Assembly: GCA_902801765.1 (NCBI GenBank)
Contig: CADCJO010000006.1
Coordinates: 58,058 to 122,057 of the forward strand
DNA: 64,000 nt
From: an uncultured Eubacteriales bacterium
GTDB taxonomy: Bacteria; Bacillota; Clostridia; Christensenellales; Aristaeellaceae
Direction of reading: 5' to 3'
Position 1 is the stretch's first letter. Each line of letters starts with the position of its first letter. The notes beneath the pieces were generated by a model, which was not told the DNA's origin, searched no databases, and saw only the letters and a list, made by a program, of their open reading frames with translations. Shown piece after piece: positions 10,326 through 52,671 of this stretch. The translations under genes were made by a program, and so were the position numbers.

Positions 10326-11147
<822 letters not shown>

Positions 11148-16300: not shown

Positions 16301-16665
16301 GATGGGGTTTCACCCCAGACCCCACCAGGGAGATGATCCCCCTGGACCCGCAACTGGCGATTTTGCGGAGTTGGGATAAGCAGACAAGCTCCGCCTGCCG
16401 CGCTGGGGTTACGAAAAGTTTGAGGGCTTCTGGCCCAAGAAAGCCAGGGAAAATCCCAGGGGGAAAGTTCACTTTCCCCTCGGGATTATTCCCAGGCTTT
16501 CCCCGGATGCGAAGCATCCGGGTTGGCGTCAAGTCAGACTTTCGCGTTCTTCCCCGTATCAGCGGGAAGCAAGCTGCTTTTCCAGCTCAAGTTAATTCCG
16601 CTATTGAGGTCCGGGAGATGAAATCTCCTGGTTCAGGGGTACAGGGGGCTGAATAAGCCCCCTGC
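16301..16665 (-). repeat. Family A structured intergenic element, copy 1
   Basis: About 365 bp of serial hairpins. The order is stem TGGGG/CCCCA, stem CCAGGG/CCCTGG, the conserved text GCGCTGGGGTTACG, a long AATCCCAGGGGG-type stem, GGATGC/GCATCC, AGGAGAT/ATCTCCT-type stem and a closing GGGGGCT/AGCCCCC stem. Three relatives (39735, 42664, 45239) have the same order with changed but paired stems. No coding potential. Strand is given as minus because the other copies follow minus-strand genes. Confidence 0.8.
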
Positions 16666-16707
16666 TCCGTCTTTATTTCCTTCACATCATGACTCTTAGT
16701 ATTTTAT

Positions 16708-16864
16708 ACTATTTCTCGTCTAAAATATTGAAAGATTCGGGATGGATTTTTCGTTCTGGCTAAGCTGAATGAAGGGAGGCGTAGCAGCGCTACGTTGACC
16801 GGAATGAAGCAACGCCATGGCGTAAAAGATGCCCAAAGATGATATAGTTTTAGATTGAGTTTAG
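16708..16864. repeat. Family C MITE-like element, copy 1
   Basis: About 157 bp bounded by imperfect terminal inverted repeats: CTATTTCTCGTCTAAAATA at the left and, read on the opposite strand, CTAAACTCAATCTAAAACTA at the right. It has the same interior (GAATGAAGGGAGGCGTAGC) as copies at 28070 and 52300. No open frame of its own. Confidence 0.7.
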
Positions 16865-16883
16865 TATTAGAAGATGAATAGTA

Positions 16884-28036: not shown

Positions 28037-28069
28037 ATTATGTCCGCCTCGGCCCGCACTTCCGCTTCA

Positions 28070-28266
28070 TACTATTGCTCGTCTAAAATATCGAAAGATT
28101 CGGGATGAATTTTTCGTTCTGACAAAGCTGAATGAAGGGAGGACGAACCGTCGATGACCGCCTGTGGCGGGAATCTCATCGACGGTGAGATCAGCCGAAA
28201 CGAGCAATCACCGCTTTGCGGCGGAAAAGACGCCCGAAGATTCAATGGTTTTGACGAGAAACAGTA
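28070..28266. repeat. Family C MITE-like element, copy 2
   Basis: About 197 bp. The left end ATACTATTGCTCGTC and right end (opposite strand) ATACTGTTTCTCGTC are inverted, and both continue to a shared GATTCGGG or TCTTCGGG. The interior includes GAATGAAGGGAGG, as in copy 1, plus a CGTCGATGACC/ATCGACG hairpin and AGCCGAAACGAGCAATC, a piece also found inside family A copy 3 (42664). Confidence 0.7.
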
Positions 28267-35736: not shown

Positions 35737-37548
35737 TTACCTGGCGGTTTTTCTGGGCGCGTAGGTGAATGTGACAGAAAGGGTTTCGATGCGGTTCATG
35801 ATGGGGTTGCTGCGATCTAGCAGCGTGGCGGAAATGCCGGTTAGATCGCCAAACAGCACGCGGGCGGTATCCTTCCCAACAGCTTTCATGTTCACCCATT
35901 CGTTAAAGAGGTTCGTGCGGGTGCATTTTCCGTCGTCGGAGCAGGTGTAGTTCCGGCCCTTGAATTTCACGGCTTCGCCGTTGATCAGGCAGGACGTGAT
36001 GTTGATGCAGTAGCCGGGGAATTTCTGTTCGCCGTTGGCAATGCCGATGGCGCTGAACGCCACGTTTTCGGCGTAGCCCTTTTCCGTGCCGGTAAAGTCC
36101 AGAGCGACAGTATATTCGCCTTCGCCGGTGATCTCCACGTCGGTGGGCACGATGCCGGGGGTGATGGAATCGGGGGTGTATGTGTCGCCCACGCTGTAGC
36201 TCAGCGCCCAGCTTCCTTCGCTGAACATGATCCAGGCAACGCAGGCATCCTCATTGACTTCCAAAGCGTCCTCCCGCAGAGTCGCTGGCGCGGCGGCGAT
36301 GGTTTCATCCAAGGCTTGCTTGCCCGCCGCAGCGATGTCGGCGCAGTCCCGGCCCTGTTCGGAGGCCGCGTTCCGCCCGGCGTAAACCGCCGCCATGTCC
36401 GGGTCCGTGATCTTCAGTTCCTTCCGGACGAAGAAGCCGCTGCAATCCCACAGGCAGGAGGTGAAGTCCAGCGCGTCGCAGCAGTCCAGGAAGGCTTTGT
36501 GATACTGCGCGGCGTTCGTTTTCATCACGCCGTCGCTGCCCGGCAGCGCGCCGTATTCGCCGATGACCACGCCGTAGCCCTGGCTGACGAATTTGCTCAT
36601 CTTGCTCAGGGTTTTGTACATGGCGTCAAAGTCCGCCGCCTTGCCCCACAGAGTAGCGCCCGCCGCGCTGGACGCGCCGCAGTAGCTCCAGGGGTCGTAG
36701 TAATGCACCGACACCATCAGCTTCTTGTTTGCCGTATCCTTGGGCATCTGGAAGCGGCTGTCGAAGGTCTGGTCGATGTTGGTGCCGTAGCCCGCAATCA
36801 GCAGGAAGCGGGATGCGTTGTTGCCGCCGGTGGCGCGGACGGTGTCCACGAACGCCTGATTGACCCGGTTGGTCAAGGTGTAGCGCTCGTTATCCGGCAG
36901 ATAGGACAGCACGGAATCCCGGGCGTAGCAGGGGGAATTTTCGTCGAACCGCGCGCCGAGCTCCTCGTTGGCGCTTTCAAAAATCAGATAATCGGAGTAA
37001 TCCCGGAAATATTCCGCAATCTGCCGCCACATGCCCTGATAGGCTTCCATGGCGAAGGCCGCAGTTTCCTTGCTTTCCGAGCCGAACATGCCCCACCAGC
37101 CGCCGTCCCAGTGGTCGTTGAGGATCACATACATGCCAGCGTTCCGGGCATAATCCACGATCTCCTTCACCCGGGCCAGGTAAGCCGGGTCGATAGTGTA
37201 ATCCTTCATTTCATAGGGCATGGCGGTGGCGTTGGTCATCCAGGCCACAGGAATGCGGATGGTGTCAAACCCGGCTTCCTTCATGCCGGTCAGCATCTCC
37301 TGGGTGGTCACGGGCTGGCCCCAGGCAGTTTCGTATACCACAGGGTCGTCGGCGTACCGGCCCCGGGTGTTGTCGCAGGCTTCCATGGTGTTGCCCAGGT
37401 TGATGCCGTTGCCCATAAGCCGGGTGGCTTCCACTGCCGTTAAGCCTTCCCGCATCGTTCCGTCATCGCCGGAAGCCCCTTCCGCCAGCGCGGGCAGGCA
37501 GGCGCAGAGCATCAGCAGGGCCAAAAACAGACAGATCATCTTTTTCAT
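35737..37548 (-). CDS. Secreted GH5 endoglucanase with C-terminal binding-like domain
   Basis: This 603-residue enzyme has a signal peptide (about 1-22), a GH5 catalytic domain (about 35-380) and a C-terminal domain (about 437-603). GH5 residues are clear: acid/base Glu195 in SANEELG, nucleophile Glu331 in VIGEYGALP, and HYYDPWSY. GH5 members cut beta-1,4-glucan, xyloglucan, mannan or mixed-linkage glucans; the subfamily cannot be told by eye. The C-terminal domain (AWIMFSEGSW, EGEYTVALDF, SAIGIANGE, FNEWVN) is homologous to the repeats of the secreted protein at 43133. ATG 37548 starts the signal peptide; the longer upstream frame runs into repeat DNA. Confidence 0.92.
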   Translation of the reverse strand: MKKMICLFLALLMLCACLPALAEGASGDDGTMREGLTAVEATRLMGNGINLGNTMEACDNTRGRYADDPVVYETAWGQPVTTQEMLTGMKEAGFDTIRIPVAWMTNATAMPYEMKDYTIDPAYLARVKEIVDYARNAGMYVILNDHWDGGWWGMFGSESKETAAFAMEAYQGMWRQIAEYFRDYSDYLIFESANEELGARFDENSPCYARDSVLSYLPDNERYTLTNRVNQAFVDTVRATGGNNASRFLLIAGYGTNIDQTFDSRFQMPKDTANKKLMVSVHYYDPWSYCGASSAAGATLWGKAADFDAMYKTLSKMSKFVSQGYGVVIGEYGALPGSDGVMKTNAAQYHKAFLDCCDALDFTSCLWDCSGFFVRKELKITDPDMAAVYAGRNAASEQGRDCADIAAAGKQALDETIAAAPATLREDALEVNEDACVAWIMFSEGSWALSYSVGDTYTPDSITPGIVPTDVEITGEGEYTVALDFTGTEKGYAENVAFSAIGIANGEQKFPGYCINITSCLINGEAVKFKGRNYTCSDDGKCTRTNLFNEWVNMKAVGKDTARVLFGDLTGISATLLDRSNPIMNRIETLSVTFTYAPRKTAR

Positions 37549-37569
37549 TTCGTTCCGTCCTTCTCTTGT

Positions 37570-37907
37570 TTCTGAAGGGTCCCTTCCTTGCCGAAAGGGG
37601 GGCCGCAAACCGTTTACAAACCCCGGGATGCATCGAAGGGCCCGCAGGCCCTTCGATTGTAATCCGCAGGCGGCGGCGTGTACGGCGCCGGGGGACGAAG
37701 CGCCTGGAAAACGGTACAGTGTACCGTTTTCAGCGTAGGCCGGGTGGAAGCCCCGGGCAGGCAACAGAATGTTGCTTCCTATATCAATTTCCGGCCGTAA
37801 AATGAGCGTTTCCAAAGGAAATGCCATTTTACAGGAAATTGATGTTTCCATCGAAAGACTGCTTTAGCTGACTTTCGATGGCTGAGCATCGACTTTGTCG
37901 ATGCTCA
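37570..37907. repeat. Family B structured element, copy 1
   Basis: About 338 bp between the binding-protein gene and the GH5 gene. On the plus strand it has GGGATGCATCGAAGGGCC with its pairing CCCTTCGATTG, then GCAGGCGGCGGCGTGTAC, a long stem formed by ATCAATTTCC and GGAAATTGAT enclosing GTAAAATG/CATTTTAC, then CATCGAAAG/CTTTCGATG and TGAGCATCGAC/GTCGATGCTCA hairpins. The last hairpin includes the stop codon of the binding-protein gene (37905-37907). Copy 2 at 53985 has the same order with different paired stems. Confidence 0.8.
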
Positions 37908-39665
37908 GTTGACCAGCGCCGCCTGGGCCTGCTGGGCCGCCCAGCACAGGGCCGCCTGCTCCTCGCACCAGGCCACGCAGTCCTGGTAGCCGTAGGCGTT
38001 GCAGTCCTTGATCATCTGGTTCAGGTGGAAGTTGAATTCGCCGTCGTTCTTGGCGTAAATGGCGCGCCAGGAATAGGTCTTGACCGCGGTCTGAATCTGG
38101 CTCCACTTGGTGTCCAGCACCTGGTCGCGCTTGGCGGGGGCGTAGGTGCCCTTGTCCAGCATCACCTTGTAGGGGTGCTTTTCCAGATACTGCTGGGTGG
38201 AGGCAGCGCCCGCCCAGTCAACCCAGGCCTGCTGGATGGGCCGCAGGTCGGCGCTCAGCACGCTGACCCAGCCTTCCTTATCCAGGGTTTCGGTCTTTTT
38301 GCTGTCGGGGTTCTGCTGGCTGGCGGTCAGGGTTGTGTTGTTGATTTGCAGCGCGCCGTCATTGTAGGTGCCGCTCTGGGGATATTCCTTTCCGGTGCGC
38401 GGGCCGATGAGGGTAACGCCCGCCATATCGAAGGCGGGGTCCGCGCTGGTCTTTTTGCCCAGCTCAGTAAAGTACGCGCCGCCCTCTTCGTCGTAATCCC
38501 AGGTCAGGCCTTTGGGGCCGTACCACATGGTCAGGCTGCCTTCGGGAGTTGCCAGGTAATCAATGATTGCCAGGCACAGTTCGGGGTATTCGGCGTCCGC
38601 GCCGACGCTCCAGATGCGGTTGCCGCCGGTCAGCGACAGACCGTAGGAAATGGGCGTGGCTTCGTCGGGCACCAGGGTGTACATGTACTTGCCGGCGTCC
38701 AAATGTTCAGCGGTGTTATAGATAGCGGAACCCGCGTAGTTGAAGATGCTCCAGAAGGTGCCGCCTGCCTTCACCTTTTCACCCATGGTGGAATAGGTCT
38801 GGCTGGCGGAGTTGGGGTCCAGCAGGCCTTCGCGGTAGAGCTGGTTGAAGAATTTCAAGCATTGTATATACAGCCCATCGGGCTCCAGGCAGCCCTGGAA
38901 CTGACCGTTTTCAGTGTTGATGAGGCCCAGCTCAAATTCGTCCCAGCCGAAGTAGGCGGTAGCCAGGGCCTTCACGTACATCACCATGTTGCCGTCCCAG
39001 TCAGGCCAGATGGACACGGCGTAGGTTTCATTGCCGTTTTCATCCGTGGGGCACAGCTCCTTCATTTGCTTGAACAGGTCGATCATGGCGTCCAGGTCCT
39101 TCACCGCGGGACAGCCCAGCTGCTGGTACAGATCCCAGCGCACGTCCCAGGTGTAGAAGAAGTTTTCATGGCTGCCCGCTTTCAGCGCCACGTTGTGGCC
39201 GAAGCCGTGCACCTTGCCGTCCGGGTTCTTGGCCCGGTTGGCTTCCAGCGCCATCTGATAGTTTTCCCACAGGTAGGGGGCGTACTCCGCCGCCAGATCG
39301 TCCTCTTCCCAGTCCAGCAGCAGGCCCTGGCTCACCGCGTCCTGGTACTTGTCGCCATCCGCGCCCCAGACCACGATGTCGCCCAGGTTGCCGCTCTCCA
39401 TGCGGGTGGCGTAGGTGCCGTCGGAATCAGGGATGATGTTGATCTTCACGTTGAACTTGTCCAGCAGCAAATCGGCGCTCCAATGGGCCTGAATGCCGCT
39501 GTAATTCGCCAGCTGGCTGTATACGTTGATCGTGATGGGCTCGCCGTCGTATACGCCGATGTCCTCCAGCTTGGCGTAGATGTCCTCGTCCTCCGCCATT
39601 GCGGGTACCGCCGCCACGCTCAGCAGCAGTGTAGCCGCCAGCAGGAAAGCAAGCAGTTTCTTCAT
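37905..39665 (-). CDS. Extracellular sugar-binding protein of the GH5 locus
   Basis: This 586-residue exported protein has a signal peptide (MKKLLAFLLAATLLLSVAAV then PAMAE). It is a family 1 solute-binding protein of the large LplA-like type (PITINVYSQLANYSGIQAHW, GDIVVWGADGDKYQD). No lipobox is present. ATG 39665 is used with AGGAGG eight bases upstream; ATG 39671 is only two bases from it. It follows two permease genes on the same strand but is separated from them by 470 bases containing a family A element, and it is followed by a family B element. It probably delivers the oligosaccharides released by the GH5 enzyme. Confidence 0.93.
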   Translation of the reverse strand: MKKLLAFLLAATLLLSVAAVPAMAEDEDIYAKLEDIGVYDGEPITINVYSQLANYSGIQAHWSADLLLDKFNVKINIIPDSDGTYATRMESGNLGDIVVWGADGDKYQDAVSQGLLLDWEEDDLAAEYAPYLWENYQMALEANRAKNPDGKVHGFGHNVALKAGSHENFFYTWDVRWDLYQQLGCPAVKDLDAMIDLFKQMKELCPTDENGNETYAVSIWPDWDGNMVMYVKALATAYFGWDEFELGLINTENGQFQGCLEPDGLYIQCLKFFNQLYREGLLDPNSASQTYSTMGEKVKAGGTFWSIFNYAGSAIYNTAEHLDAGKYMYTLVPDEATPISYGLSLTGGNRIWSVGADAEYPELCLAIIDYLATPEGSLTMWYGPKGLTWDYDEEGGAYFTELGKKTSADPAFDMAGVTLIGPRTGKEYPQSGTYNDGALQINNTTLTASQQNPDSKKTETLDKEGWVSVLSADLRPIQQAWVDWAGAASTQQYLEKHPYKVMLDKGTYAPAKRDQVLDTKWSQIQTAVKTYSWRAIYAKNDGEFNFHLNQMIKDCNAYGYQDCVAWCEEQAALCWAAQQAQAALVN

Positions 39666-39734
39666 GAACATAACCTCCTGTCTTTTTTGGAACACTTTAT
39701 AGATTGACGCAGTGAAAGATGTACGGGTGGGTTA

Positions 39735-40132
39735 CGCTGGGGGCTGCGCGCCCCCAGACCTGCGGCAAGGGATTTCATCCCTTGCATCCCAATAGGCGAT
39801 TAAGCAAGCAGTAGAGAGAAAGCAAGTTCCGCCTGCCGCGCTGGGGTTACGGAAAGTTTGAGGGCTTCTGGCCCAAGAAAGCCCGGGAAAATCCGAGGGG
39901 AAAATTCATTTTCCCCTACGGATTATTCCCTGGCTTTCCCCGGATGCTTTGCATCCGGGTTGGCGGCTTCACCGCCGGGCCAGAAGCACCACGGCACCAA
40001 GTCAAACTTCCGCGTTCCTTCCCGCTTCTGCGGGAATCAAGCTGTTTTTATGCCTCAAGCAATATCCGCTATTGAGGTCCAGGAGATGAAATCTCCTGGT
40101 GCAGGTGCACGAGGGCCGCACAGGCCCTCGCC
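39735..40132 (-). repeat. Family A structured element, copy 2
   Basis: About 398 bp directly after the permease stop (5 bases away) and before the binding-protein gene. Hairpins include CTGGGGGC/GCCCCCAG, GCAAGGGAT/ATCCCTTGC, GGATGC/GCATCC, GGCGGC/GCCGCC, a GGAGAT/ATCTCC stem and CGAGGGCC/GGCCCTCG. The first two differ from copy 1 and copy 4 by compensating changes. Confidence 0.85.
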
Positions 40133-40136
40133 TAGG

Positions 40137-41093
40137 TCAGCCCTTCACCGCGCCGAGCATGATGCCCTTAACAAAGAAGCGCTGCATGAAGGGATAGACC
40201 AGCAGGATGGGGATGATACTGACCATGGACACGGTATACTGGATAACGCGCTGGTTCAGCATGCTTTGGGCGGCCTGTTCGCTGATGGTGCCGCCCTGGC
40301 TCATCATAGCGCCCAGGTTGCTGGAGGAATTGAGGTAGATGTACAGCCGGTGCTGGAGGGTGTAGAGGTCGGGCCGGTTGTTCATCAGCAGCAGGGAATC
40401 CTGGAAGGAGTTCCAATTGCCTACCGCGCCGAAGATGGCGATGGTGGCCAGGATGGGCACGCTGAGGGGCAGGATGATTTTGAGCCACACCTTGAGGGTG
40501 GACGCGCCGTCGATGACCGCGCTCTCCTCCAGGGAAGAGGGAATGGACTCGATGTAGGTTTTCACCAGGATGATGTTGTAGGGGGCCACCATGCCGGGGA
40601 TGATGTAGGCCAGGAAGTTGTCGGTCAGGCCCATCATGAGCATGTTCATGTACCAGGGCACCAGGCCCGCGTTAAAGTACATTGTGACCACCAGGAAGCG
40701 GTACCAGAAGGAGCGCTTCCACATCTTCTGCTTGGTGACCAGATAGCCCGCCCAGGCGGAGGTGATCACCATCAGCGCCGTGCCCAGGAGGGTGCGGGCC
40801 ACCGTGACCAGCACGGAGGAGCCCAGGTCCTGCACGTTTTGCAGCGCCACGTAGTTGTTCACCTGGACGCCGAAGATCGGGTTGCCCTCGGCGTTTTTCA
40901 GCATCGGGAAGAAGTTCACCCGCCCGCTGGTGACCAGGTCGTTATCCGAAATGGTGTTGATGAGCAGGTAGTAGAAGGGGAAGATGCAGATGAAGGTGAA
41001 AATGCAGAAGAAGATGATGACCGCGATATCGAAGATCCAGTCCCCGGTGGTGCGCTTGATATGCTGGGGGGCGTTCTGTTCTTTTTTGCTCAT
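40137..41093 (-). CDS. Sugar ABC transporter permease, second of pair
   Basis: This 318-residue permease has six predicted helices and the EAA loop, here EESAVIDGASTLKVWLKIILP. The end RFFVKGIMLGAVKG is the standard family C-terminus. It is LplC/YtcP-like. It begins 15 bp after the stop of the 505-residue permease gene. Together with the binding protein 37905-39665 it makes up an uptake system without an ATPase gene. A family A element follows immediately. Confidence 0.93.
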   Translation of the reverse strand: MSKKEQNAPQHIKRTTGDWIFDIAVIIFFCIFTFICIFPFYYLLINTISDNDLVTSGRVNFFPMLKNAEGNPIFGVQVNNYVALQNVQDLGSSVLVTVARTLLGTALMVITSAWAGYLVTKQKMWKRSFWYRFLVVTMYFNAGLVPWYMNMLMMGLTDNFLAYIIPGMVAPYNIILVKTYIESIPSSLEESAVIDGASTLKVWLKIILPLSVPILATIAIFGAVGNWNSFQDSLLLMNNRPDLYTLQHRLYIYLNSSSNLGAMMSQGGTISEQAAQSMLNQRVIQYTVSMVSIIPILLVYPFMQRFFVKGIMLGAVKG

Positions 41094-41108: not shown

Positions 41109-42626
41109 TTATATGATGCTTTCGCCGCGAATGGTCTTGGAAATGCCGTTCGCCGCGAAGAGCAGCGTAATGCCGATGAGGGACTTGGAAATGCCCACCA
41201 CGGTACTGAGGGAAATCCGGTTCTGGCCGATACCGATGTTGTATACGTACAGGTCCAGGACCTCGATCACGTCCTTGTTCATGGCGTTGGAGAACACCAG
41301 GTATTGCTCCATGCCATTGCTCAGGATGCCCGCGATGCTCATGAGCAGCATGACCATGTAGGTGGGCGTCAGGCCGGGAATGGTGATGTGCCAGATGCAG
41401 CGGAAGCGGTTCGCGCCGTCCACCTTCGCGGCTTCATACAATTGCTGGTCGATGCCCGCGATGCCCGCAATGTACACGATGGCGCTCCAGCCCACGCCCT
41501 TCCAGGTGCCCCACAGCAGCATTTTCAGCCACGTGTGGTCGGCGACCTGGAGGTAGTTGGTGTTTGCTCCGGACACGTGCATCACGTTGGTCAGAAAGCT
41601 GTTGATAAAGCCGTCGGTGGAGAAAATGCAGATGGCGATGGCATACACCAGCACCCAGGAAATGAAGTTGGGAATGGTGGTGAAGGTCTGCACGAAGCGC
41701 TGGAACTTGGTGGAGCGCACCTCGGCCAGCAGCACGGCAAACGCGATGGGCAGCCAGGAGGTGGCGATGCCCAGGCCGCTCATCACCAGCGTGTTACGCA
41801 GTACGCGGATCAGATCCTTCGTGGTTGCGGGGTCGGAGAACAGGAAGCTGAACCACTTGAAGCCCACGTAGTTGTCCGGGCCGATGCTTCCGCCGGGCGT
41901 GTAGTCAAAGAACGCGAAGCGCCAGCCCCAGATGGGCAGGTAGGCAAAGATCAGCGTCAGCAGGATCACCGGCAGCATCATCAGAAACAGCCGGTATTTT
42001 TCGTCCATTTCCATCTTCACGGCGGGGTCGGTTTCCTTCTCCGTGGTCAGAAACGCGATCAGCGCCGTAAGGAAAAGAAGCCCCGCAAACGCGCAGAACA
42101 CCCAGAACCCGCTGGGAATCATCATGTTGATTTTATCCAGCTTGTCCACTTCTTCGCCGTGGGCTATCATTTTGTTATAGGAAAGCCGGATCAGCACCAG
42201 GCCCGCCGCCATCACCGGCGCGCCGATGAGCGGAAACGTAAAGCCGCGCCGCCGCATTTTGCGGTTGCCCAGGCTCATGCAGCCGCCCACGCCGCAGAGG
42301 ATCACGCCCAGCATCACCACGACGCAGGCGATCATGAGCAGCGTAATGTCCGCGTCCTGAATCCACTGGGAACGCAGGATGCGGCCCATGCTGTTGGTGA
42401 TGGTGCCATAGCTGACGCCGTTGGTGAACAGACTGGCCGACGCGTTGATTTTTTCGCTGATGCGGCCCGGATTGGCGGGCGGGAAAAACATGGCGATCCC
42501 GGCCAGCAGCGCCGCGATGCGGAATACCCACAGCGGCAGCCGGCGGCTCAGGGGCATGTCCTCCCCCTGAAGCGCGCGTTGAGGGGCAGACACCATGCGT
42601 TCATCACTTCCTCTTTCGGTTTTCAT
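41109..42626 (-). CDS. Sugar ABC transporter permease with extra N-terminal membrane domain
   Basis: At 505 residues this permease is about 190 longer than usual. The C-terminal 300 residues are a normal LplB-type domain (FLMMLPVILLTLIFAYLPIW; EAAKVDGANRFRCIWHITIP). The extra part holds about four membrane helices: LPLWVFRIAALLAGIAMFF (near 30-50), ITLLMIACVVVMLGVILCGV (near 98-120), FPLIGAPVMAAGLVLI (near 135-150) and WVFCAFAGLLFLTALIAFL (near 180-200). Related proteins with this layout occur in some Clostridia. Start uncertain: ATG 42626 has no clear ribosome site and ATG 42596 has GAGGA 12 bases away. First permease gene of the locus. Confidence 0.88.
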   Translation of the reverse strand: MKTERGSDERMVSAPQRALQGEDMPLSRRLPLWVFRIAALLAGIAMFFPPANPGRISEKINASASLFTNGVSYGTITNSMGRILRSQWIQDADITLLMIACVVVMLGVILCGVGGCMSLGNRKMRRRGFTFPLIGAPVMAAGLVLIRLSYNKMIAHGEEVDKLDKINMMIPSGFWVFCAFAGLLFLTALIAFLTTEKETDPAVKMEMDEKYRLFLMMLPVILLTLIFAYLPIWGWRFAFFDYTPGGSIGPDNYVGFKWFSFLFSDPATTKDLIRVLRNTLVMSGLGIATSWLPIAFAVLLAEVRSTKFQRFVQTFTTIPNFISWVLVYAIAICIFSTDGFINSFLTNVMHVSGANTNYLQVADHTWLKMLLWGTWKGVGWSAIVYIAGIAGIDQQLYEAAKVDGANRFRCIWHITIPGLTPTYMVMLLMSIAGILSNGMEQYLVFSNAMNKDVIEVLDLYVYNIGIGQNRISLSTVVGISKSLIGITLLFAANGISKTIRGESII

Positions 42627-42663
42627 TTACACATAAAGGGCACTTTAAGTCTTTAATGGAAAC

Positions 42664-43092
42664 GCTGGGGCTGTTCGCCCCAGACCCCAACCAGGGTCCT
42701 GAGTATCCGCAGCCTCAATCGTCGCAACTCGCCTTCATGGCGAGATTGCTCGTTTCGGCTTAACTTTGTTGTGATAAACAACCAAGTTCCGCCTGCCGCG
42801 CTGGGATTACGGAAGGTTTGAGGACTTCTGGCCCAAGAAAGCCGGGAAAATCCCAGGGGAAAAGTTCACTTTTCCCTGGGGATTGTTCCCAGGCTTTCCC
42901 CGGATGCAAAGCATCCGGGCTGGCGGCTTCGCCGCCGGGCCAGAAGCACAACGGCACGAAGCCAGACTTCCGCGTCTCTCCCAGCATCAGCGGGAACCAT
43001 GCTGATTTTCCACCTCAAGCAATATCCGCTATTGGAGTCCAGAGGTCGAAGACCTTTGGTGCAGGTGCACGAGGGCCGCACAGGCCCTCGCC
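42664..43092 (-). repeat. Family A structured element, copy 3 (with insertion)
   Basis: About 429 bp between the repeat-domain gene and the permease genes. It has GCTGGGGC/GCCCCAG, then a ~70-base stretch (CCGCAGCCTCAATCG... AATTGCTCGTTTCGGCTT-like) in place of part of the second stem, then the conserved body. The AGGAGAT/ATCTCCT stem of other copies is AGAGGTC/GACCTTT here, still paired. It ends in CGAGGGCC/GGCCCTCG. Confidence 0.83.
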
Positions 43093-43132
43093 CCCGTTGT
43101 AATATAAAGTTCCCTTCAATTACGATATGCGA

Positions 43133-45118
43133 TTACCAGCCGCTGACGGTAAAGGTGATGGCCACGGTTTCATTCGCACCGGGAATGGTCCAGGTGATGG
43201 CGGGAGCGGCGGCCTGGTTGTAGGTGTCGATGATCTTGATGGCGACGTTTTCGCCGGAGGTATCAACCTCGGTGTATTCCTGGGTCGCGCCGGAGCCGAA
43301 CTTCACCTTGACATTGTCGATGGTCAGGAAGCCGTCGTTGACCAGCTTGCTGGGGATGTTGGTGGAAACGAAGAGCATGTTGTAATCGGCGGTGGCGCCC
43401 ATGCCCATGTCGCCGGTGGTGAAGGACACGGTGTATTCGCCGTCGCCCTTGATTTCAGCGTCCACGAAGGCGCCGCCGTAGTCCACCGCGTTGTTGTCGG
43501 CGTCCCAGCCGGTCAGACGGTTGAAGAATTCAGGATTCGCAAGGCCGTAGCTGGCTTCGTCCCAGCTGTTGCGGAACACGTAGGTGTCCTTGCCCTGCAC
43601 GCCGATGTAGGCGTTGAAGCCGTTCTGCTTGAGGGCGTCCGCTTCTTCCTGGGTCAGGGGGGCTTCCTCGTCCTTGGCGATGGGCTTGCCGTAGATGAAG
43701 TTGAAGGTCACTTCGATGGACTTGAAGGCGGCGAAGGCTTCCTTGTCCACGATGACGGGGGCAGCGCCTTCCAGGCTGCCGTCGGCGCGGCGGGCGTCGG
43801 CGGGCAGCTCACTGACCCATTCGTTGTAGATGTTTTCGCGGGTTTCAATGCCGTTGTCGGAAGAGGTATAGCCCTTGCCGATGGTGATGGGTTCGCCGTT
43901 GACCTTGATTTCGGTCACGTCGATGAAATAGCCGTTGAAGGTCTTTTCGCCGTTCACGATGCCCACGGCGGCGAAAGCCAGGCCCTGAGCTTCCTCGTCC
44001 AGCTCGATGCCAACGGTGTAGGTGCCGGGACCGGCGATTTCAGCGGTGGTCACCTTGCCGGGATATTCGTTGCCGTCATACCAGAACTGGTTGGCCCACG
44101 CGCCGTCCGCGTACATGAGGTAAGCCACGTCGGTCACGGGCAGGAGGGAGAAGTCGATTTCAAAGCTCTTGACCGCGGCGAACAATTCCTTGTCCACGAT
44201 AACGGGCTTCACGTCGTCCACCTTGCCATCGAAAGAGCGGGCGTCGGCAGGCACTTCGCTGACCCATTCGTTGTACACGTTCATGCGGGTTTCCACGCCG
44301 TTGTCGGAAGAAGTATAGCCCTTTTCAAAGGCGATTTCCTCGCCGTTCACGCGCATGGCGTTGATGCGTATGTAAGCGCCGGGATAGGTCTTTTCGCCGT
44401 TCACGATGCCCACGGCGGCGAAGGCCAGGCCCTGGGCTTCCTCGTTGAATTCCAGGCCCACGGTGTAATCGCCGAAGCCGTTGATCTGGGCGGTCTTGGC
44501 GGTCACGGGGTATTCGTTGCCGTCATACCAGAACTGGTTGGCCCAAGCGCCGTCCGCGTACATGATGTAAGCGGTGTCCACGCCAAACTGATGCAGGACG
44601 AAGTCGATTTCGATGGTCTTGACCGCGGCGAACAGCTCCTTGTCCACGATGACGGGCTTGACGTCGTCAGTCTTTCCGTCGAAGGAACGGGCGTCCTTGG
44701 GCACTTCGGAAACCCATTCGTTGTAAATGTTCATGCGGGTTTCCACGCCGTCGTCGGAGGAGGTGTAGCCCTTTTCAAAGGCGATTTCCTCGCCGTTCAC
44801 GCGGATGGCCTTCAGCTCGATGGTGTAGCCGGGCAGCAGGGTTTCGCCGTTCTTGATGCCGAGGGCGGCGAAGGCCAGGCCCTGGGCTTCCTCGTTGAAT
44901 TCCAGGCCCACGGTATATTCGCCCGCGCCGTTGATTTCGGCGGTGGCGGCTTTCACGGGATACTCGTTTCCATCGTACCAGAACTGGTTGGCCCACGCGC
45001 CGTCGGCGTACATGATGTAGGCCACGGGCGCGGCGGTTTCCTCCGCCATGGCGGGCACGATGGCCAGCGCGCTCATCATCAGCGCCAGGCACAGGATGAC
45101 ACTCAGAGTCTTTTTCAT
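43133..45118 (-). CDS. Secreted protein of four tandem ~150-residue binding-like domains
   Basis: This 661-residue protein has a signal peptide (MKKTLSVILCLALMMSALAI then VPAMAE). Three near-identical domains begin at residues 33, 183 and 332 (AYIMYADGAWANQFWYDG), each with GEYTVGLEFNEEAQGLAF, GYTSSDDGVETR, NIYNEWVSE and PVIVDKELFAAVK. A fourth, diverged copy spans 502-661 (AYIGVQGKDTYVFRNSW; GDGEYTVSFTTG; IDTYNQ; VAITFTVSGW). No enzyme motif is present. The GH5 enzyme at 35737 ends in the same domain, so a glycan-binding role is inferred. It has AGGAGG seven bases before ATG 45118. I did not recognise a named family for the domain. Confidence 0.9.
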   Translation of the reverse strand: MKKTLSVILCLALMMSALAIVPAMAEETAAPVAYIMYADGAWANQFWYDGNEYPVKAATAEINGAGEYTVGLEFNEEAQGLAFAALGIKNGETLLPGYTIELKAIRVNGEEIAFEKGYTSSDDGVETRMNIYNEWVSEVPKDARSFDGKTDDVKPVIVDKELFAAVKTIEIDFVLHQFGVDTAYIMYADGAWANQFWYDGNEYPVTAKTAQINGFGDYTVGLEFNEEAQGLAFAAVGIVNGEKTYPGAYIRINAMRVNGEEIAFEKGYTSSDNGVETRMNVYNEWVSEVPADARSFDGKVDDVKPVIVDKELFAAVKSFEIDFSLLPVTDVAYLMYADGAWANQFWYDGNEYPGKVTTAEIAGPGTYTVGIELDEEAQGLAFAAVGIVNGEKTFNGYFIDVTEIKVNGEPITIGKGYTSSDNGIETRENIYNEWVSELPADARRADGSLEGAAPVIVDKEAFAAFKSIEVTFNFIYGKPIAKDEEAPLTQEEADALKQNGFNAYIGVQGKDTYVFRNSWDEASYGLANPEFFNRLTGWDADNNAVDYGGAFVDAEIKGDGEYTVSFTTGDMGMGATADYNMLFVSTNIPSKLVNDGFLTIDNVKVKFGSGATQEYTEVDTSGENVAIKIIDTYNQAAAPAITWTIPGANETVAITFTVSGW

Positions 45119-45238
45119 GATGCTTCCTCCTTTAAAATTGTGTGCTTTGTATATCGCTTCCGCCATTTGGCGGGTTAGCTTCTCAGATCCTTGCGGTTCA
45201 TATCCTTTTCAAGGGCTTTTTTAAAACACCAAGAGACA

Positions 45239-45600
45239 CGCTGGGACTATTCGCCCCAGACCCCAACCAGGGTCCTGAGGACCCTGGACCCACAACTGGC
45301 GAAATAACATCGTTGGAATAGGCTAACAAACTCCGCCTGCCGCGCTGGGGTTACGAAAAGTTTGAGGGCTTCTGGCCCAAGAAAGCCTGGGAAAATCCGA
45401 GGGGAAAAGTAAACTTTTCCCTGCGGATTATTCCCTGGCTTTCCCCGGATGCAGCACAACGGCACGAAGCCAAGCTTCCATGTTCCTCCATGCAACAGCG
45501 GGAACCAATCCGATCTACCCAACCAAGCTACTTCCGCTACTGAGGTCCAGGAGATGAAATCTCCTGGTGCAGGTGCACGAGGGCCGCACAGGCCCTCGCC
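45239..45600 (-). repeat. Family A structured element, copy 4
   Basis: About 362 bp between the LacI gene (stop 23 bases away) and the repeat-domain gene. It has CTGGGACT..CCCCAG, CCAGGGTCC/GGACCCTGG, the common GCGCTGGGGTTACG, a AAAAGT-AACTTTT stem and the CGAGGGCC/GGCCCTCG closing stem. It lacks the GGCGGC/GCCGCC hairpin of copies 2 and 3. Confidence 0.85.
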
Positions 45601-45622
45601 CCGTTGTAATTTAAGTACTCTT

Positions 45623-46636
45623 TCACTCAACACGGTTATGAACTGGCCCCAGCGTTTCCCCCGGCAGGAGCGCGGCGGGCATCACCGTTTGACAGGGGCG
45701 ATGCGTGTCGGGGTTTTCGATGGCGTCCAGCAGTTGAACAATGGCCTGCCTGGCAATCGCCGCGGCGTCCTGCCGCACGGTGGTCAGGCGCGGATGCATC
45801 ATCTGGCCCATACGGATGCCGTCGCAGCCCGCCAGGCTCACGTCCTGCGGTGCCCGGAGGTTCAGTTCCTCCAGGGCCGACAGCGCGCCCAGGCAGCTGA
45901 AATCGTCGGGGCACAGGATGCAGGTGGGCGGTTCGGGGGCCTCCATCAGCGCGCGCACGTCCTTCGCGCAGGCGGCGGGATCGTGGAAATGTCCCTCCCG
46001 CACGTATTCCGCCGGGACGCGCGCGCCAAGCTCCGCGCATTGCTTGTAAAAACCCGCCAGCCGTTCCCGGGTGACCACGCTGTCCTCGCCGTGGATGTAG
46101 GCGATTTTCCGGTGGCCCCGTTCCCAGGCCGCCCGCACCAGCGCTTCCATCCCGGCACGGTTGCCGTTCAGCACGCAGTCGCAGCCCTCGTATGCGTGGT
46201 CGATCACCACAGTGGGGACGCTGTCCGCCACCAGGCGCATCACATCCGCCGAATTGAAATCCGTCTGCACCACGATCACGCCGTCCAGGCTGCGCCGCCG
46301 GACGCGCTCGCAGTAGGTGCCTTCTTCGTTCTGATGGGAGGAACGGCGGATGAAGGTCAGGTCGTAGCCCTGGGCCTCCGCGCCGAAGCGCAGTTCGTTG
46401 AGCAGCAGGCTGAAATACTCGTGATCCATCCTGTCCTCATACAGGATGCCGATATTGAAGGACCGGCTGGTTTTCAGCGTGCGGGCGGCGGCGTTGGGCA
46501 CATAGCCCATTTCCTTGGCTTTCTGGCGGATGTAGGCCGTATTCTTTTTGTCCGGGTTCGTGCGCCCGTTGAGCGCGCGGGAAACCGTGGCGGTGGAAAC
46601 GCCGCAGGTCAGGGCGATATCCTTTAGCTTGACCAT
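45623..46636 (-). CDS. LacI-family transcriptional regulator
   Basis: This 337-residue repressor begins with a LacI helix-turn-helix (KDIALTCGVSTATVSRALNG) and hinge helix (about 50-58), followed by a periplasmic-binding-like sugar domain with the C-terminal LTTVRQDAAAIARQAIVQLL. It sits at the head of the minus-strand polysaccharide locus and just downstream of a candidate LacI operator covering its own start site. Probably represses the GH5 transport and binding genes until oligosaccharide arrives. The inducer is not known. Confidence 0.92.
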   Translation of the reverse strand: MVKLKDIALTCGVSTATVSRALNGRTNPDKKNTAYIRQKAKEMGYVPNAAARTLKTSRSFNIGILYEDRMDHEYFSLLLNELRFGAEAQGYDLTFIRRSSHQNEEGTYCERVRRRSLDGVIVVQTDFNSADVMRLVADSVPTVVIDHAYEGCDCVLNGNRAGMEALVRAAWERGHRKIAYIHGEDSVVTRERLAGFYKQCAELGARVPAEYVREGHFHDPAACAKDVRALMEAPEPPTCILCPDDFSCLGALSALEELNLRAPQDVSLAGCDGIRMGQMMHPRLTTVRQDAAAIARQAIVQLLDAIENPDTHRPCQTVMPAALLPGETLGPVHNRVE

Positions 46637-48429: not shown

Positions 48430-50463
48430 TTATTCAGCGGCCAGCCAAACGCGCATTTCCCCCTTGCCGCGGTTGTTCCAGGCAAAATAAGGAATCAGTG
48501 TCATTTCCGTGTCTTCGGTTTCGGCGGGCGTCCAAGGGGTGTACAGCGGCGCGTTTTTCGCCGGTTCCTTCACGCGCCTGCCGGGCAGAATGACGGCGGG
48601 CAGGGTCAGGCCGTCGATGATGACGGTCTTTTCTCTCGCTTCCGCCACGCGGTCAGGCAGCGCTCGCAGGAGGTGCAGGCGCTTGCCGTTGTCTGCCTCC
48701 TCCGCGCAGAACACCAGCGGGCCCCGGGTGAAGCACACCTGGTTCATGGCTTCCTTCACCAGCGGAGAAGCCTTCACCGCCTTGACGGGCATAGTGAAAT
48801 GGATGGTCACCTGGCCGCCCTGCTTCCAAACGCCCTTGGCGTACAGATAACCGTTTTCGCTCCAGCTTTTCACGCCGGCGGGAATTTTCACATGGGCGTT
48901 GCCGGCCCAGGCGGGGTCGCGGAAGGCCAGGGTGCCCTGGGCTTCGCCCTCCAGAACGGTCACATGCACGTCGCCGTTTTTGAGCAGGTCGGCTTCCATG
49001 CGCAGGGTGACCTTCCCGCCGTTCAGGTTCACGGTCACGTCACTGCCAATATACAGGTGGAAGAACAGGGTGTCCTGGGTCTGGGTAAATATGTATTGGC
49101 CCAGGGAGGACACGATGCGGGCGATATTGGGCGGGCAGCAGGCGCAACCGAACCACTTCTGCCGAATGGGTTTCACATGGGACAGCCGTTGATCCGTTTC
49201 GCAGGCGTCCGGATCAACCTCCAGGGGATTGACATAGAAGAAGCTCTGCCCGTCCAGCGCCATGCCGGACAGGACGGTATTGTACAGCGCCTGCTCCATC
49301 ACATCGGCGTAATCGCTCAAAGGCTTCAATTGCAGCATCCGCCGGGCGAAGAAGGCCAGACCGATGGCCGCGCAGGTTTCGGAATAGGCGGTATCGGCAG
49401 GAAGGTCAAAAGGGCGGGAGAAAGCCTCGCCCACGTGGGTGCCGCCCACGCCGCCGGTGATATACAATTTTTCATTCACCACGGACTGCCACAGCCGTTC
49501 GCAGGCCGCCAGCATCTCCGGATCATCATTGAGCCGGGCTTCGTCCGCCATGCCGCAGCACAGGTACATCTGCCGCACCGCGTGGCCCACGGCTTCCTTC
49601 ATTTCCCGCACGGGCATATGCGCCTGGTGGTACTGATAGCGTTCGGAGGTAGTCGGCAGCTCCGGCTGGCCTTTTTCCGCCCGGCGGCGGTTTTCTTCCA
49701 CAGCAAAGGTGTTGGGCTCGGTGCCGCGAACGTCCAGGAAGAACTGGCTCAGGTCGCGCCACCGGGTCTCCCCCGTTTCCTCGTACAGCCGCATCAGCGC
49801 CATTTCCGCGATCTCATGGCCGGGGCAGCCGCGTTCCTTGTCCGGCCCAAAGCGTTCGGCAATGCACGCGGCGAAGCGCCGCGCGGCGTTCAGCAGATCG
49901 TCCCTGCCCGTGGCTTGATGCCAGGCAACGGCGGCTTCAGTCAGGTGGCCGAAGCAATAGAGCTCGTGGTTGTCCCGCAGATTGGTGAACGCCCGGTCGC
50001 GGCCCGTCAGGGTGTAGAAAGTGTCCAGGTAGCCATCCTCCTCCTGGGCGGCGCAGATCATGTCCACGGCCTCCTGGGCCTGGGCCTGCAAAACGGGATC
50101 GGGTTTTATCATCAGCTGATAGGCCACGGCTTCCAGCCATTTGTAGCCGTCGCTGTCCTGAAACACGAAACCGTAGAAGGCATCCTCCAGAGGCTTTTTC
50201 CCTTCCTCCGGCAGGGTTTCAATACGTTCGGAGCGGTGGGTGGGCACATATACTCCGCCTGCTTTTTTCGCCGCCACGGCGCGGGCGGCGGCCCGCATGT
50301 TGTGAGCCCACCAGGACGGCGCGGCGTCGGGAATCTGGTCGTGCAGCGCTTTCCACTGGTAGGGAATCACCGCCTGGCGAATCAGGCCGATTTCCCGCGC
50401 CCAGAACGGATCGGTCACGCGAACGTTATTTAGGGAAAGCGGCTGGGATGTTTCGGCGCGCAT
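48430..50463 (-). CDS. GH127 beta-L-arabinofuranosidase-like glycoside hydrolase
   Basis: This 677-residue enzyme belongs to the GH127 (formerly DUF1680) family, which removes terminal beta-L-arabinofuranose from plant glycoproteins and other glycans. The alpha/alpha barrel motifs are GYLDTFYTL and YCFGHLTEAAVAWHQATG, and the metal/nucleophile cluster is KWFGCACCPPNIARI (Cys residues bind Zn and attack the sugar). A beta-sandwich tail follows. No signal peptide, so it likely works inside the cell on imported oligosaccharides. ATG 50463 is preferred (GGAGG 11 bases upstream). It is 21 bp from the GH29 gene, same operon. Confidence 0.92.
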   Translation of the reverse strand: MRAETSQPLSLNNVRVTDPFWAREIGLIRQAVIPYQWKALHDQIPDAAPSWWAHNMRAAARAVAAKKAGGVYVPTHRSERIETLPEEGKKPLEDAFYGFVFQDSDGYKWLEAVAYQLMIKPDPVLQAQAQEAVDMICAAQEEDGYLDTFYTLTGRDRAFTNLRDNHELYCFGHLTEAAVAWHQATGRDDLLNAARRFAACIAERFGPDKERGCPGHEIAEMALMRLYEETGETRWRDLSQFFLDVRGTEPNTFAVEENRRRAEKGQPELPTTSERYQYHQAHMPVREMKEAVGHAVRQMYLCCGMADEARLNDDPEMLAACERLWQSVVNEKLYITGGVGGTHVGEAFSRPFDLPADTAYSETCAAIGLAFFARRMLQLKPLSDYADVMEQALYNTVLSGMALDGQSFFYVNPLEVDPDACETDQRLSHVKPIRQKWFGCACCPPNIARIVSSLGQYIFTQTQDTLFFHLYIGSDVTVNLNGGKVTLRMEADLLKNGDVHVTVLEGEAQGTLAFRDPAWAGNAHVKIPAGVKSWSENGYLYAKGVWKQGGQVTIHFTMPVKAVKASPLVKEAMNQVCFTRGPLVFCAEEADNGKRLHLLRALPDRVAEAREKTVIIDGLTLPAVILPGRRVKEPAKNAPLYTPWTPAETEDTEMTLIPYFAWNNRGKGEMRVWLAAE

Positions 50464-50484
50464 ATCTTGATCATCCTCCATCTG

Positions 50485-51951
50485 TCAGGTCATTTGCAAG
50501 TGGAACGCGACGGGCATCTCGCTGTGAATTCCCGGTGCGGAAATATGCAGCCCTTCCCCGTCGCGGCTCCATTCCACAGGCGCATCGCAGCACAGGGCTT
50601 CCACCTTGTCAATGCCGCCGATGAAGGCGGGCAGGGACAGGGAGCGGATGGTCACCTGCCCATCCTCCGGCCAGGCCATCACGACGGCGTACAGATTGCC
50701 GCCCTTCACGGTAAAGCGGATGTCCTGGGCGGTGTAGGTCTTCTCCTTGCTCTCGGCGAACTGGCCTTCCTCGATGTTGGTGGGACCCTCGCCGAACACA
50801 CGCCAGGGGCGGGTGCCGTAAATGGCTTCGCCGTTCTGTTTCAGCCAAGCGCCGATGGCTTTCAGCACCGCCGTATCCTCCGGGCCGATGGTGCCGTCCG
50901 CCTTGGGGCCGACATTCAGAAGCAATGTACCGTTCTTGCTCACCACGTCCACCAGCGTGCGCACCAAATCCTCGGGCTTTTTGAATTCGTTCTGCTCTGT
51001 GTAGCACCAGCTGTTCTTGGCGATGGCGGTGTCGGTCTGCCAGAAGAAGGGCTGAGTCGCCGCGAAGTGACCGCGCTCCATATCCGGCACGGCAGTGCCC
51101 AGCATGAAGGTATCCTGCTTATAGTTGATGGCGGGCTGCACGCCCCATTCCGCGGAACGGTTGTAATAATACGCGGCAAATTTTTTAATGTAGGGCTTCA
51201 TCACATTCTGCAGAATCCACCAGTCAAAATACACCACCACGGGATGGAACCGATCCACCAGCTCGCAGCAGCGCAGCAGCCAGTCCTGCATAAACTCTTC
51301 GCTGGGCGGGCATTCCGCGTCGCGGTTGAAATGATCCTTGGGCTCGGGCATGGAGGGCCAATAGATGTCGTCCCGGTCGATGGGGTCGTGGATATCCGAA
51401 TCAAAATCCTTGCCATGGCCCAGGAAGAACCAGTGCTCGATGCGGTGGCTGCTGACGCCCATGGGGATGCCCTTCTGCTCCAGCGCCTGTTTCAGTTCGC
51501 CTGTGGTGTCCCGGCACGGGCCCATTTCCGCGGCGTTCCAATGGCTGATTTCGCTTTTGTACATCTGGAACCCGTCGTGGTGCTCCGCCACGGGAATCAC
51601 ATACTTTGCCCCGGCTTCCGCAAACAGATCGGCCCAGGCGGCGGGGTCAAACTTTTCCGCCTTGAACAGGGGAATAAAATCCTTATAGCCGAATTCCTTG
51701 TGGGGGCCATAGGTTTTGATATGATGCTCAAACTCCGGGGTGCCCTGGATATACATGCTCCGGGGATACCATTCGTTCCTGTACGCGGGCACGGAATACA
51801 CGCCCCAATGGATGAAAATGCCGAATTTCGCGTCCTGATACCATGTGGGCGCGCTGAACCGGGACAGCGATTCCCAATTGTCTTTGAAAGGTCCCCGGAC
51901 AATCACCCGGTCGATTTCCTGAAGCCTCGCCGCGCGTTCGGCTGCGTTCAT
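50485..51951 (-). CDS. GH29 alpha-L-fucosidase
   Basis: This 488-residue enzyme releases L-fucose from glycan ends. GH29 features: SAPTWYQDAKFGIFIHWG at the start, VAEHHDGFQMY, and the nucleophile Asp in VVVYFDWWI. It is cytosolic (no signal). AGGAGG is eight bases before ATG 51951. It is first in the GH29-GH127 pair. Fucose and arabinofuranose removal suggests the locus handles plant side-chains such as fucosylated xyloglucan or arabinogalactan, which fits the GH5 enzyme nearby. A near-match operator (TAAAAACGTTTTCT, 52060-52073) lies upstream. Confidence 0.92.
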   Translation of the reverse strand: MNAAERAARLQEIDRVIVRGPFKDNWESLSRFSAPTWYQDAKFGIFIHWGVYSVPAYRNEWYPRSMYIQGTPEFEHHIKTYGPHKEFGYKDFIPLFKAEKFDPAAWADLFAEAGAKYVIPVAEHHDGFQMYKSEISHWNAAEMGPCRDTTGELKQALEQKGIPMGVSSHRIEHWFFLGHGKDFDSDIHDPIDRDDIYWPSMPEPKDHFNRDAECPPSEEFMQDWLLRCCELVDRFHPVVVYFDWWILQNVMKPYIKKFAAYYYNRSAEWGVQPAINYKQDTFMLGTAVPDMERGHFAATQPFFWQTDTAIAKNSWCYTEQNEFKKPEDLVRTLVDVVSKNGTLLLNVGPKADGTIGPEDTAVLKAIGAWLKQNGEAIYGTRPWRVFGEGPTNIEEGQFAESKEKTYTAQDIRFTVKGGNLYAVVMAWPEDGQVTIRSLSLPAFIGGIDKVEALCCDAPVEWSRDGEGLHISAPGIHSEMPVAFHLQMT

Positions 51952-52278: not shown

Positions 52279-52299
52279 GTATTTTCAGTAGTATTAATA

Positions 52300-52456
52300 C
52301 TAAACTCAATCTAAAACTATATCATCTTTGGGTGTCTTTTACGCCATGGCGTTGCCTCATTCCGGTCAACGTAGCGCTGCTACGCCTCCCTCCATTCAGC
52401 TTAGCCACGGCGTAAAATCCATCCCAAATCTGATACATTTTTAGCTTGAGTTTAGC
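52300..52456. repeat. Family C MITE-like element, copy 3
   Basis: About 157 bp with the best-preserved terminal inverted repeats: CTAAACTCAATCTAAAACTA at the left; CTAAACTCAAGCTAAAAATG at the right (opposite strand). The interior has ACGCCATGGCG and AACGTAGCGCTGCTACG. It inserts between tRNA-Trp and the maltose-type operon, in the reverse orientation to copies 1 and 2. Confidence 0.8.
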
Positions 52457-52606
52457 AAAAGGAATGTTCTGTTTCATATAAAAAAGCTGCTTCGAAAATA
52501 TCCAGCCGGTATTCAAGCGAATGTCCAGCTGGTATGTTTTCATCCAGACTTTGCGAATTTTTCCAAAAGAAGATAAATAAATATGGAAAAATGCAACAAT
52601 TTCCTC

Positions 52607-52635
52607 TTGAAAATTTCGAGGAGTTATGCTATACT
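52607..52635 (+). promoter_or_regulatory. Promoter of the maltose-type operon
   Basis: TTGAAA (52607-52612) and TATACT (52630-52635) are 17 bases apart. Start site ~52642, 30 bases before ATG 52672. Confidence 0.82.
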
Positions 52636-52671
52636 TTTTTCACCTGGAAAATAATAAAGGAGGTTTCTCTC

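Follow-up and report, generated by a model that had tools for sequence, protein, structure and literature searches.

The gene at positions 43133 to 45118 on the minus strand of a 64,000-nucleotide stretch from an uncultured Eubacteriales bacterium of the family Aristaeellaceae (contig CADCJO010000006.1, positions 58,058 to 122,057; the whole stretch is referred to here as the window) encodes a secreted protein, designated REP, which consists of three similar copies of one module, A, followed by a diverged fourth module, D. From sequence comparisons we consider it probable that REP is a secreted, non-catalytic, multivalent capture protein for glycan import, and that module A represents a carbohydrate-binding module (CBM) of an undescribed kind, predicted to recognize polysaccharides with a beta-1,4-glucan backbone. 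This reading is built on the presence of module A at the C-terminus of an endoglucanase of glycoside hydrolase (GH) family 5 encoded in the same locus, and on a gene order, conserved in relatives of this bacterium, that places REP beside the permeases of an ATP-binding cassette (ABC) importer.

Module A in REP and on a GH5 endoglucanase

The REP gene and its parts are as follows:
43133..45118, minus strand: REP gene, encoding an A-A-A-D secreted protein of 661 residues (from the open reading frame, ribosome-binding site, modules and purifying selection)
45044..45118, minus strand: REP signal peptide MKKTLSVILCLALMMSALAIVPAMA, signal peptidase I type, without a lipobox (read by eye)
44594..45025, minus strand: module A copy 1, about 145 residues (AlphaFold2 pLDDT 96.5)
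44144..44575, minus strand: module A copy 2, 82% identical to copy 1
43697..44128, minus strand: module A copy 3, 67% identical to copy 1
43139..43615, minus strand: module D, the diverged fourth module, with its own FRNxW/RLTGWD motif and without TSSD..TRxNxYNEWV (pLDDT 94.0)

Taken to its full open length the reading frame covers 43133..45166 (minus strand, 677 residues), and the start at 45118 is supported by a ribosome-binding-like sequence, aaaggaggaagcatcATG, upstream of it. Residues 33, 183, 332 and 502 are the module starts, in agreement with a first-pass annotation of this DNA, but its description of the first three as almost identical was too strong: they are similar repeats, with the identities to copy 1 given above and 69% between copies 2 and 3. 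The repetition is also visible in the DNA, as three copies of a 300-nucleotide unit (71% and 75% against the reference copy) and three of a 181-nucleotide unit (83% and 87%), spaced by 447-450 nucleotides. REP is under purifying selection, with dN/dS of 0.10-0.56 in seven comparisons, and a chance or low-complexity repeat was ruled out, given that relatives share the layout and dN/dS lies below 1. The plus-strand open reading frame at 43127-45178 (683 residues) is a shadow of the conserved minus-strand protein. That REP is secreted and shows no catalytic motif had also been proposed in the annotation; both statements agree with the signal peptide seen by eye at its N-terminus and with the absence of any catalytic family in Pfam at E-values up to 1.

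The GH5 endoglucanase is encoded by the fourth gene downstream of REP, and its true start is probably an internal methionine ahead of a signal peptide (by eye). Its C-terminal module is 36% identical to module A of REP (E 7e-30). REP and this enzyme are the only proteins in the genome of this bacterium (81% complete) in which module A was found, and the module D of REP was matched weakly (E 7e-4) by a wider, 98-row profile of A. Module A is therefore a separate, non-catalytic unit attached to a carbohydrate-active enzyme, as CBMs in general are, and a lone beta-rich module at the C-terminus of a GH5 enzyme is typical CBM architecture. Because a GH5 glucanase carries it at its C-terminus, module A is most likely a CBM common to the enzyme and REP.

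Consistent with this, 30 positions are at least 85% conserved both in 18 GH5-borne copies of A and in 80 other copies (a set that includes one GH5 row, from the relative locus L143). Among them are D138, T143, R144, N146, N149, W151 and R160 (P0002 numbering), and many of the 30 lie in the stretch YTSSDDGxxTRxNxYNEWV or at Arg160. Because these positions are conserved in both groups, the copies of A on the enzyme and in REP probably have one common function. Module D, which the annotation rightly called diverged, is a homologue of module A (hhalign E 4e-6, probability 87); the E-value of 3e-15 reached by an iterated profile was not relied on, because such a profile may already include D rows. 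D lacks the conserved stretch of A and conserves aromatic and polar positions of its own, which suggests that it has a ligand or partner unlike that of A. The AlphaFold2 models of both modules are confident and beta-rich (A, from a 98-row alignment, pLDDT 96.5 and pTM 0.91; D, from 53 rows, pLDDT 94.0 and pTM 0.89).

In a module tree made by a quick method from 90 rows and 148 columns, which leaves 33 of its 87 inner branches open, all 15 sampled GH5-borne copies of A are set apart by a single branch (99, starred), so that the module appears to have long evolved separately in the enzymes and in REP. The positions of the copies within REP are clustered on this tree, with 17 changes where shuffling gives 49.6. 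Of 25 third copies, 18 group together (97, starred), and first and second copies are intermixed.

Gene order and anchoring in relatives

The genes around REP in the window are the following:
35737..37851, minus strand: GH5 endoglucanase (Pfam Cellulase, E 2.5e-48), with a C-terminal module A
35761..36240, minus strand: C-terminal module A of the GH5 enzyme, in one copy (profile and sequence matches to REP module A)
37905..39695, minus strand: substrate-binding protein (SBP) of the ABC importer, 596 residues (from its size, a signal peptide without cysteine and its place adjoining the permeases; kept in relatives)
40137..41093, minus strand: ABC permease B (BPD_transp_1)
41109..42626, minus strand: ABC permease A (BPD_transp_1)
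45623..46636, minus strand: LacI-family regulator (Pfam)
48430..50481, minus strand: GH127-family enzyme (Pfam), upstream, presumably linked to the operon, from its position
50485..51951, minus strand: GH29-family alpha-L-fucosidase (Pfam), upstream, presumably linked to the operon, from its position

The place of REP after the LacI regulator and ahead of the permeases, all on the minus strand, is thus as first annotated; that reading of the locus was right about the context and overlooked both the module A on the GH5 enzyme and the confinement of D to REP described below. Module A was detected in 28 of 150 genomes of the window's family, its own included (13 of 50 genera, E 0.001), in 11 of 297 genomes of the order (E 1e-4), seven of these in the window's family, and in 2 of 398 genomes of the phylum, one being the window's own. 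A scan of named genomes confirmed 256 stretches, the best 80 of which were kept and gave 78 loci, mostly from rumen and hindgut Clostridia assemblies, to judge by their titles. This list favours REP, because it was ranked by similarity to module A copy 1, and each gene in it was named after the window protein that it matched best in BLASTP.

REP occurs in 75 of the 78 loci. Permease A is the next gene after it on its strand in 71 of these 75 and lies at most four genes away in 73, and the SBP gene is found within four genes of REP in 66. Among 77 REP reading frames the layout is A-A-A-D in 57, A-A-D in 14 and another in 6, some of them being cut by contig ends or frame breaks. A GH5 enzyme with A is present in 34 loci, 31 of them with REP. 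All 34 module-bearing reading frames other than REP carry one A and match the GH5 catalytic domain (that of L081 over 152 residues only), as none of the 77 REP frames does. Within the 78 named loci, module D was seen nowhere but in REP; outside them, L166 has a separate reading frame with D. In L133 and L137 a module-less GH5 gene lies between REP and permease A. At the same operon position, L083 (16422-18644), L095 (16606-19020) and L106 (8230-10431) have a GH5 enzyme with another, unnamed C-terminal module, preceded in L083 and L106 by Big_2-type domains (Pfam). Distant proteins with A-like domains were seen in L051 (8124-9914), L052 (7997-10959), L063 (7654-9534) and L053 (8603-9799); they have no Pfam family and are not beside this importer.

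A histidine kinase gene directly upstream of REP in L143, and the fact that multi-module secreted proteins can form surface arrays, could mean that REP serves the locus in sensing glycan, or as a structural part of a surface layer, and not in uptake. We hold this to be highly improbable, since Pfam shows no signalling or S-layer domain in REP and the gene immediately upstream is that of the LacI regulator in 35 of the 75 loci (in 11 the stretch contains no upstream gene).

As to its attachment, the window's REP has a signal peptide and neither a lipobox nor a C-terminal tail (by eye), so that the annotation's description of it as a free protein holds for the window; it does not extend to six of the 75 REP relatives (L103, L108, L112, L121, L125 and L143; 35-49% identical to the window's REP), which end in a hydrophobic segment and a basic tail. 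Some other relatives have an N-terminal hydrophobic segment and then a coiled-coil-looking stretch (by eye). REP may thus be held at the surface in relatives with a C-terminal membrane tail or an apparent N-terminal anchor.

The window's SBP likewise has a signal peptide without a lipobox (by eye). In the six loci with tailed REP, the SBP has a lipobox in five by a strict pattern and in L125 (TTAC-S) by eye, and in the other 69 loci 58 SBPs are of the plain signal-peptidase type, one is ambiguous and 10 are unreadable; tailed and untailed loci are groups of relatives, not independent events. These calls were made with our own pattern scripts and not with SignalP: the loose lipobox pattern matched 18 of 66 SBPs and 12 of 77 REP frames, and the strict one 5 of 66 SBPs plus one ambiguous. 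LspA was found in 19 of 21 genomes of the lineage (10 of 14 controls positive) and Omp85 in none of the 21, the window's own included (7 of 14 controls positive), from which the lineage appears able to make lipoproteins and is probably monoderm. With Omp85 lacking in that scan, an outer membrane was rejected as an explanation for the unanchored SBP. The SBPs of ABC importers in this material (37905-39695 and 52534-53904 in the window; loci L066-L139) are mostly without a clear lipobox, which was missing from 59 of 66 by the strict script and from 47 of 66 by the loose one, and this is unusual for a monoderm.

The same features allow REP to be seen as a plant cell-wall adhesin or matrix component, whose glycan-binding modules would attach cells or released enzyme to fibre with no feeding of an importer. 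Tandem modules suit avidity, some relatives have the membrane tails or the N-terminal hydrophobic and coiled-coil-like stretches described above, and the unanchored REP of the window could coat fibre. A precedent is Cgt of Actinoplanes, which is free, secreted and made of CBM only, as REP would be, and the deletion of which caused no growth phenotype; unlike REP it has a single CBM20, which binds starch, and no importer operon is mentioned in the available text of that report (PMC7275007). For a pure adhesin, however, the position of REP would be needless, with permease A directly next in 71 of 75 loci when a GH5 enzyme with A accompanies it in just 31, and we regard this alternative as unlikely.

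Several repeats were noted in the window. One of them, non-coding, dispersed and about 310 bases long, lies at 16309-16678, 39752-40132, 42659-43107 and 45235-45614, three copies occupying the gaps that flank REP on both sides and the gap between the permease B and SBP genes. In the whole genome it gave 40 long matches including the query, the others at 80-88% identity (40 scored of 181 candidates); one copy folds into highly stable hairpins whichever strand is taken (z -7.5 and -7.1) and matches no Rfam family at gathering score. A second, shorter family (16703-16869, 28066-28142 and 52295-52431) is 92-93% identical and occurs in both orientations, and tandem self-matches with offsets of 108-324 bases lie inside a reading-frame region at 10471-10985.

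Family searches and likely substrate

REP has nothing above cut-off in Pfam or NCBIfam, and module A is unnamed in Pfam, NCBIfam and PDB sequences; the label "unrecognised" given to it earlier holds for these three collections. Many newer CAZy families are missing from Pfam, and the label does not extend to CAZy. A comparison of folds and profiles, of the kind by which the annotation proposed to recognize a CBM, or else some other known domain, was run for A and D against the PDB, and neither kind of match rose above the cut-off. For D, Foldseek gave no PDB match at E 0.001 among 560 in all, the top-ranked row having a TM-score of 0.27, and TM-scores were low throughout the best 50 rows of A and of D. 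The best PDB profile matches, YojF for A (E 0.038 over 36 residues) and dihydrolipoyl acetyltransferase for D (20-row profile, E 0.11), were given no meaning. Also rejected were TAXi_C in REP (E 3e-4 over 22 residues, below its cut-off) and the scattered or sub-cut-off matches to Shr-like_HID (E 0.004, 10 of 77 module rows) and Glucodextran_B (2 of 77).

Two described families invite comparison, the papers cited here and below being drawn on for the parts of their text available to us. CBM65, from E. cellulosolvens with homologues in R. albus, comprises rumen endoglucanase modules that bind beta-glucans (PMC4954948), and CBM72 (C5614-1) is a beta-glucan-binding endoglucanase module with the ligand triad Trp-380/Tyr-411/Trp-423 (PMC4725902). 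Module A resembles both in sitting on a rumen glucanase, and homologues of CBM72 are also C-terminal, two of them with tandem copies. It differs in that neither REP nor the GH5 enzyme matches Pfam CBM65_1 (PF18259) at E up to 1, a family also absent from the 12 that match the 77 module rows at E up to 0.1, and in that the triad spacing of CBM72 is nearly absent: a crude, ungapped search for W-Y-W found it in 2 of 237 A modules and in none of 71 D modules, versus 7% of 5000 random reading-frame windows. No CBM65 chain is among the best 50 of 618 Foldseek rows or the 23 profile hits for A, and a scan for CBM65 sequences found them in 0 of 199 genomes and also in 0 of 14 controls. Membership of A in CBM65 or CBM72 is thus not supported by these tests, which are limited and not decisive.

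The likely substrate was approached through the enzymes of the loci. The solved structures nearest to the GH5 catalytic domain are the beta-1,3-1,4-glucanases 4x0v (E 9e-52) and 5h4r and the xyloglucanase 2jep (E 1e-50), and 1edg is also among its top PDB sequence matches. All four are GH5_4 enzymes, a subfamily to which the domain may belong. Neighbours of REP were counted as same-strand reading frames of at least 280 residues within 4 kb, among the best 25 of 74 families upstream and the best 25 of 31 downstream, and many of them are non-glycan genes. A GH94 phosphorylase gene accounts for 3 of 67 upstream neighbours, and in L108 it stands between LacI and REP. The nearest structures of the GH5 enzyme and this GH94 gene favour a beta-glucan backbone. 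GH31 accounts for 2 of the 67 neighbours upstream and for 3 of the 43 downstream, and three of these five could be placed. L143 has, in order, GH5 with A, GH29, GH31, a histidine kinase, REP, the permeases and the SBP; L094 has GH29 and, further on, GH5 with A, REP, the permeases, the SBP and GH31; and in L108 GH5 with A is followed at a distance by LacI, GH94, REP, the permeases, the SBP, one reading frame and GH31. The combination of a fucosidase and a xylosidase fits xyloglucan use, and GH29 with GH31 in L143 and L094, GH31 in L108 and the GH29 of the window make us lean towards xyloglucan. GH31 as a genome-wide marker of xyloglucan use was rejected, its ubiquity allowing no discrimination, and GH31 guessed in L128, L139 and L127 and GH94 guessed in L084 and L092 were shown by Pfam to be otherwise.

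Several observations weigh against REP as a glycan-capture protein or against the ligand proposed for it. Foldseek gave no PDB match to module A at E 0.001 (618 up to E 10), the best among the top 50 of these having E 0.047 at a TM-score of 0.26, and a 77-row profile of A found no related chain among PDB sequences. The conserved core of A is a polar loop motif with one Trp and no obvious aromatic platform. GH5 with A was not seen in 44 of the 75 REP loci and lies within four genes downstream in 27, its absence being partly due to contigs that end and to other GH5 forms that occupy its position. The substrate is not pinned to xyloglucan, because GH43 (3 of 43) and GH9 (2 of 43) are found among downstream neighbours and GH67 and GH39 (2 of 67 each) among upstream ones; GH31, a functionally mixed family, turned up in every one of the 40 genomes examined, which stand for 40 of the 78 loci. 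Finally, both REP and the SBP of the window are without a membrane anchor, as judged by sequence, in a lineage without Omp85, and have no evident means of staying near the transporter.

Some of these points would suit a protein-protein module, through which the GH5 enzyme and REP would join in an extracellular complex by A-A or A-partner contacts with REP as the scaffold: A has no CBM match by sequence or fold, its most conserved stretch is polar, a module common to enzyme and REP is also what a complex would need, and among the 78 loci D was seen in no protein but REP. One beta-rich module at the C-terminal end of a GH5 enzyme is, however, the arrangement usual for a CBM, and GH5-borne A occurs with neither REP nor its permeases in stretches filed under Ruminococcus (L140, 20.5 kb) and Treponema (L141, 12 kb), so that a scaffold seems to us decidedly unlikely. 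The Treponema gene itself points to a transfer between phyla, or else to a contig binned wrongly. L142 (filed under Oscillospiraceae) also has GH5 with A and no REP in its stretch; it was not counted as a REP-free case, because a permease A relative lies at its edge, by a 970-residue reading frame other than REP.

Comparison with known systems and proposed role

SusE and SusF are lipid-anchored, non-catalytic surface proteins of Bacteroidota that capture glycans, and the annotation had proposed REP as their analogue. The analogy holds for function, REP being multi-module, non-catalytic and encoded with an importer, and does not extend to sequence, where no relation was found. A lipid anchor and a TonB-dependent partner were not found either: REP has no lipobox (by eye), the permeases are of the ABC type and Omp85 was seen in 0 of 21 genomes. 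The same likeness and differences apply to SGBP-A/B of the Bacteroides ovatus xyloglucan locus, non-catalytic surface glycan-binding proteins that accompany a TonB-dependent transporter and, as in the REP locus, a GH5 endo-glucanase (PMC4967831).

Among Firmicutes, Sas20 of Ruminococcus bromii is a multi-domain polysaccharide binder, as is predicted for REP, with two domains whose features were unpredictable from sequence; its ligand is starch, in cell-surface amylosome complexes, and it has two unlike domains instead of three similar ones and a fourth, and is reported with no ABC-importer operon in the available text (PMC9112005). The xyloglucan importer loci of Anaerocellum bescii (Athe_2052-2054, PMC12710961) and Ruminiclostridium cellulolyticum (PMC4780118) share with those described here two permeases and an SBP, the lack of an ATPase gene and a nearby GH31 (here in L094, L108 and L143), whereas the available texts mention no multi-CBM capture protein in them. 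No sequence link ties the window's SBP to the fold of Athe_2052, as it has no PDB sequence match at E up to 0.001, and it has no Pfam match at E up to 1. Among the papers listed by searches of the open-licence PMC literature, we recognized none as describing module A or an operon that pairs an ABC importer with a multi-CBM capture protein.

For REP as a capture protein, the following course may be supposed. Module A would bind a polysaccharide with a beta-1,4-glucan backbone, xyloglucan or mixed-linkage glucan being the first candidates; its one copy on the GH5 endoglucanase would target the enzyme to the polymer, and the three tandem copies would give REP the avidity to retain this polymer, a plant cell-wall glucan, close to the cell during cutting and import. 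Oligosaccharides released by the GH5 enzyme would then be passed by the large SBP to permeases A and B. Module D, specific to REP, may bind a second glycan feature, or may be the part by which REP docks, at the transporter or at the cell surface, and a surface role of REP would fit the C-terminal membrane tail carried by six relatives. A bolder version, which we regard as doubtful, is that A and D found a new CBM family with a variant beta-rich fold, and that REP is the surface protein of a monoderm serving its ABC importer, D docking it to the SBP or permease and so compensating for an SBP that in this lineage lacks a lipid anchor.

Polymer capture by an importer is well known in Bacteroidota and, in the literature searched, little described for Gram-positive-type gut bacteria that use ABC transporters. 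The REP locus, conserved in many uncultured rumen and hindgut Clostridia, offers a defined protein with which capture beside an ABC importer can be probed. If the proposed role is true, it would add a CBM family that Pfam and NCBIfam do not recognize, present on rumen glucanases, and would be useful for annotating the genomes of fibre-degrading bacteria.

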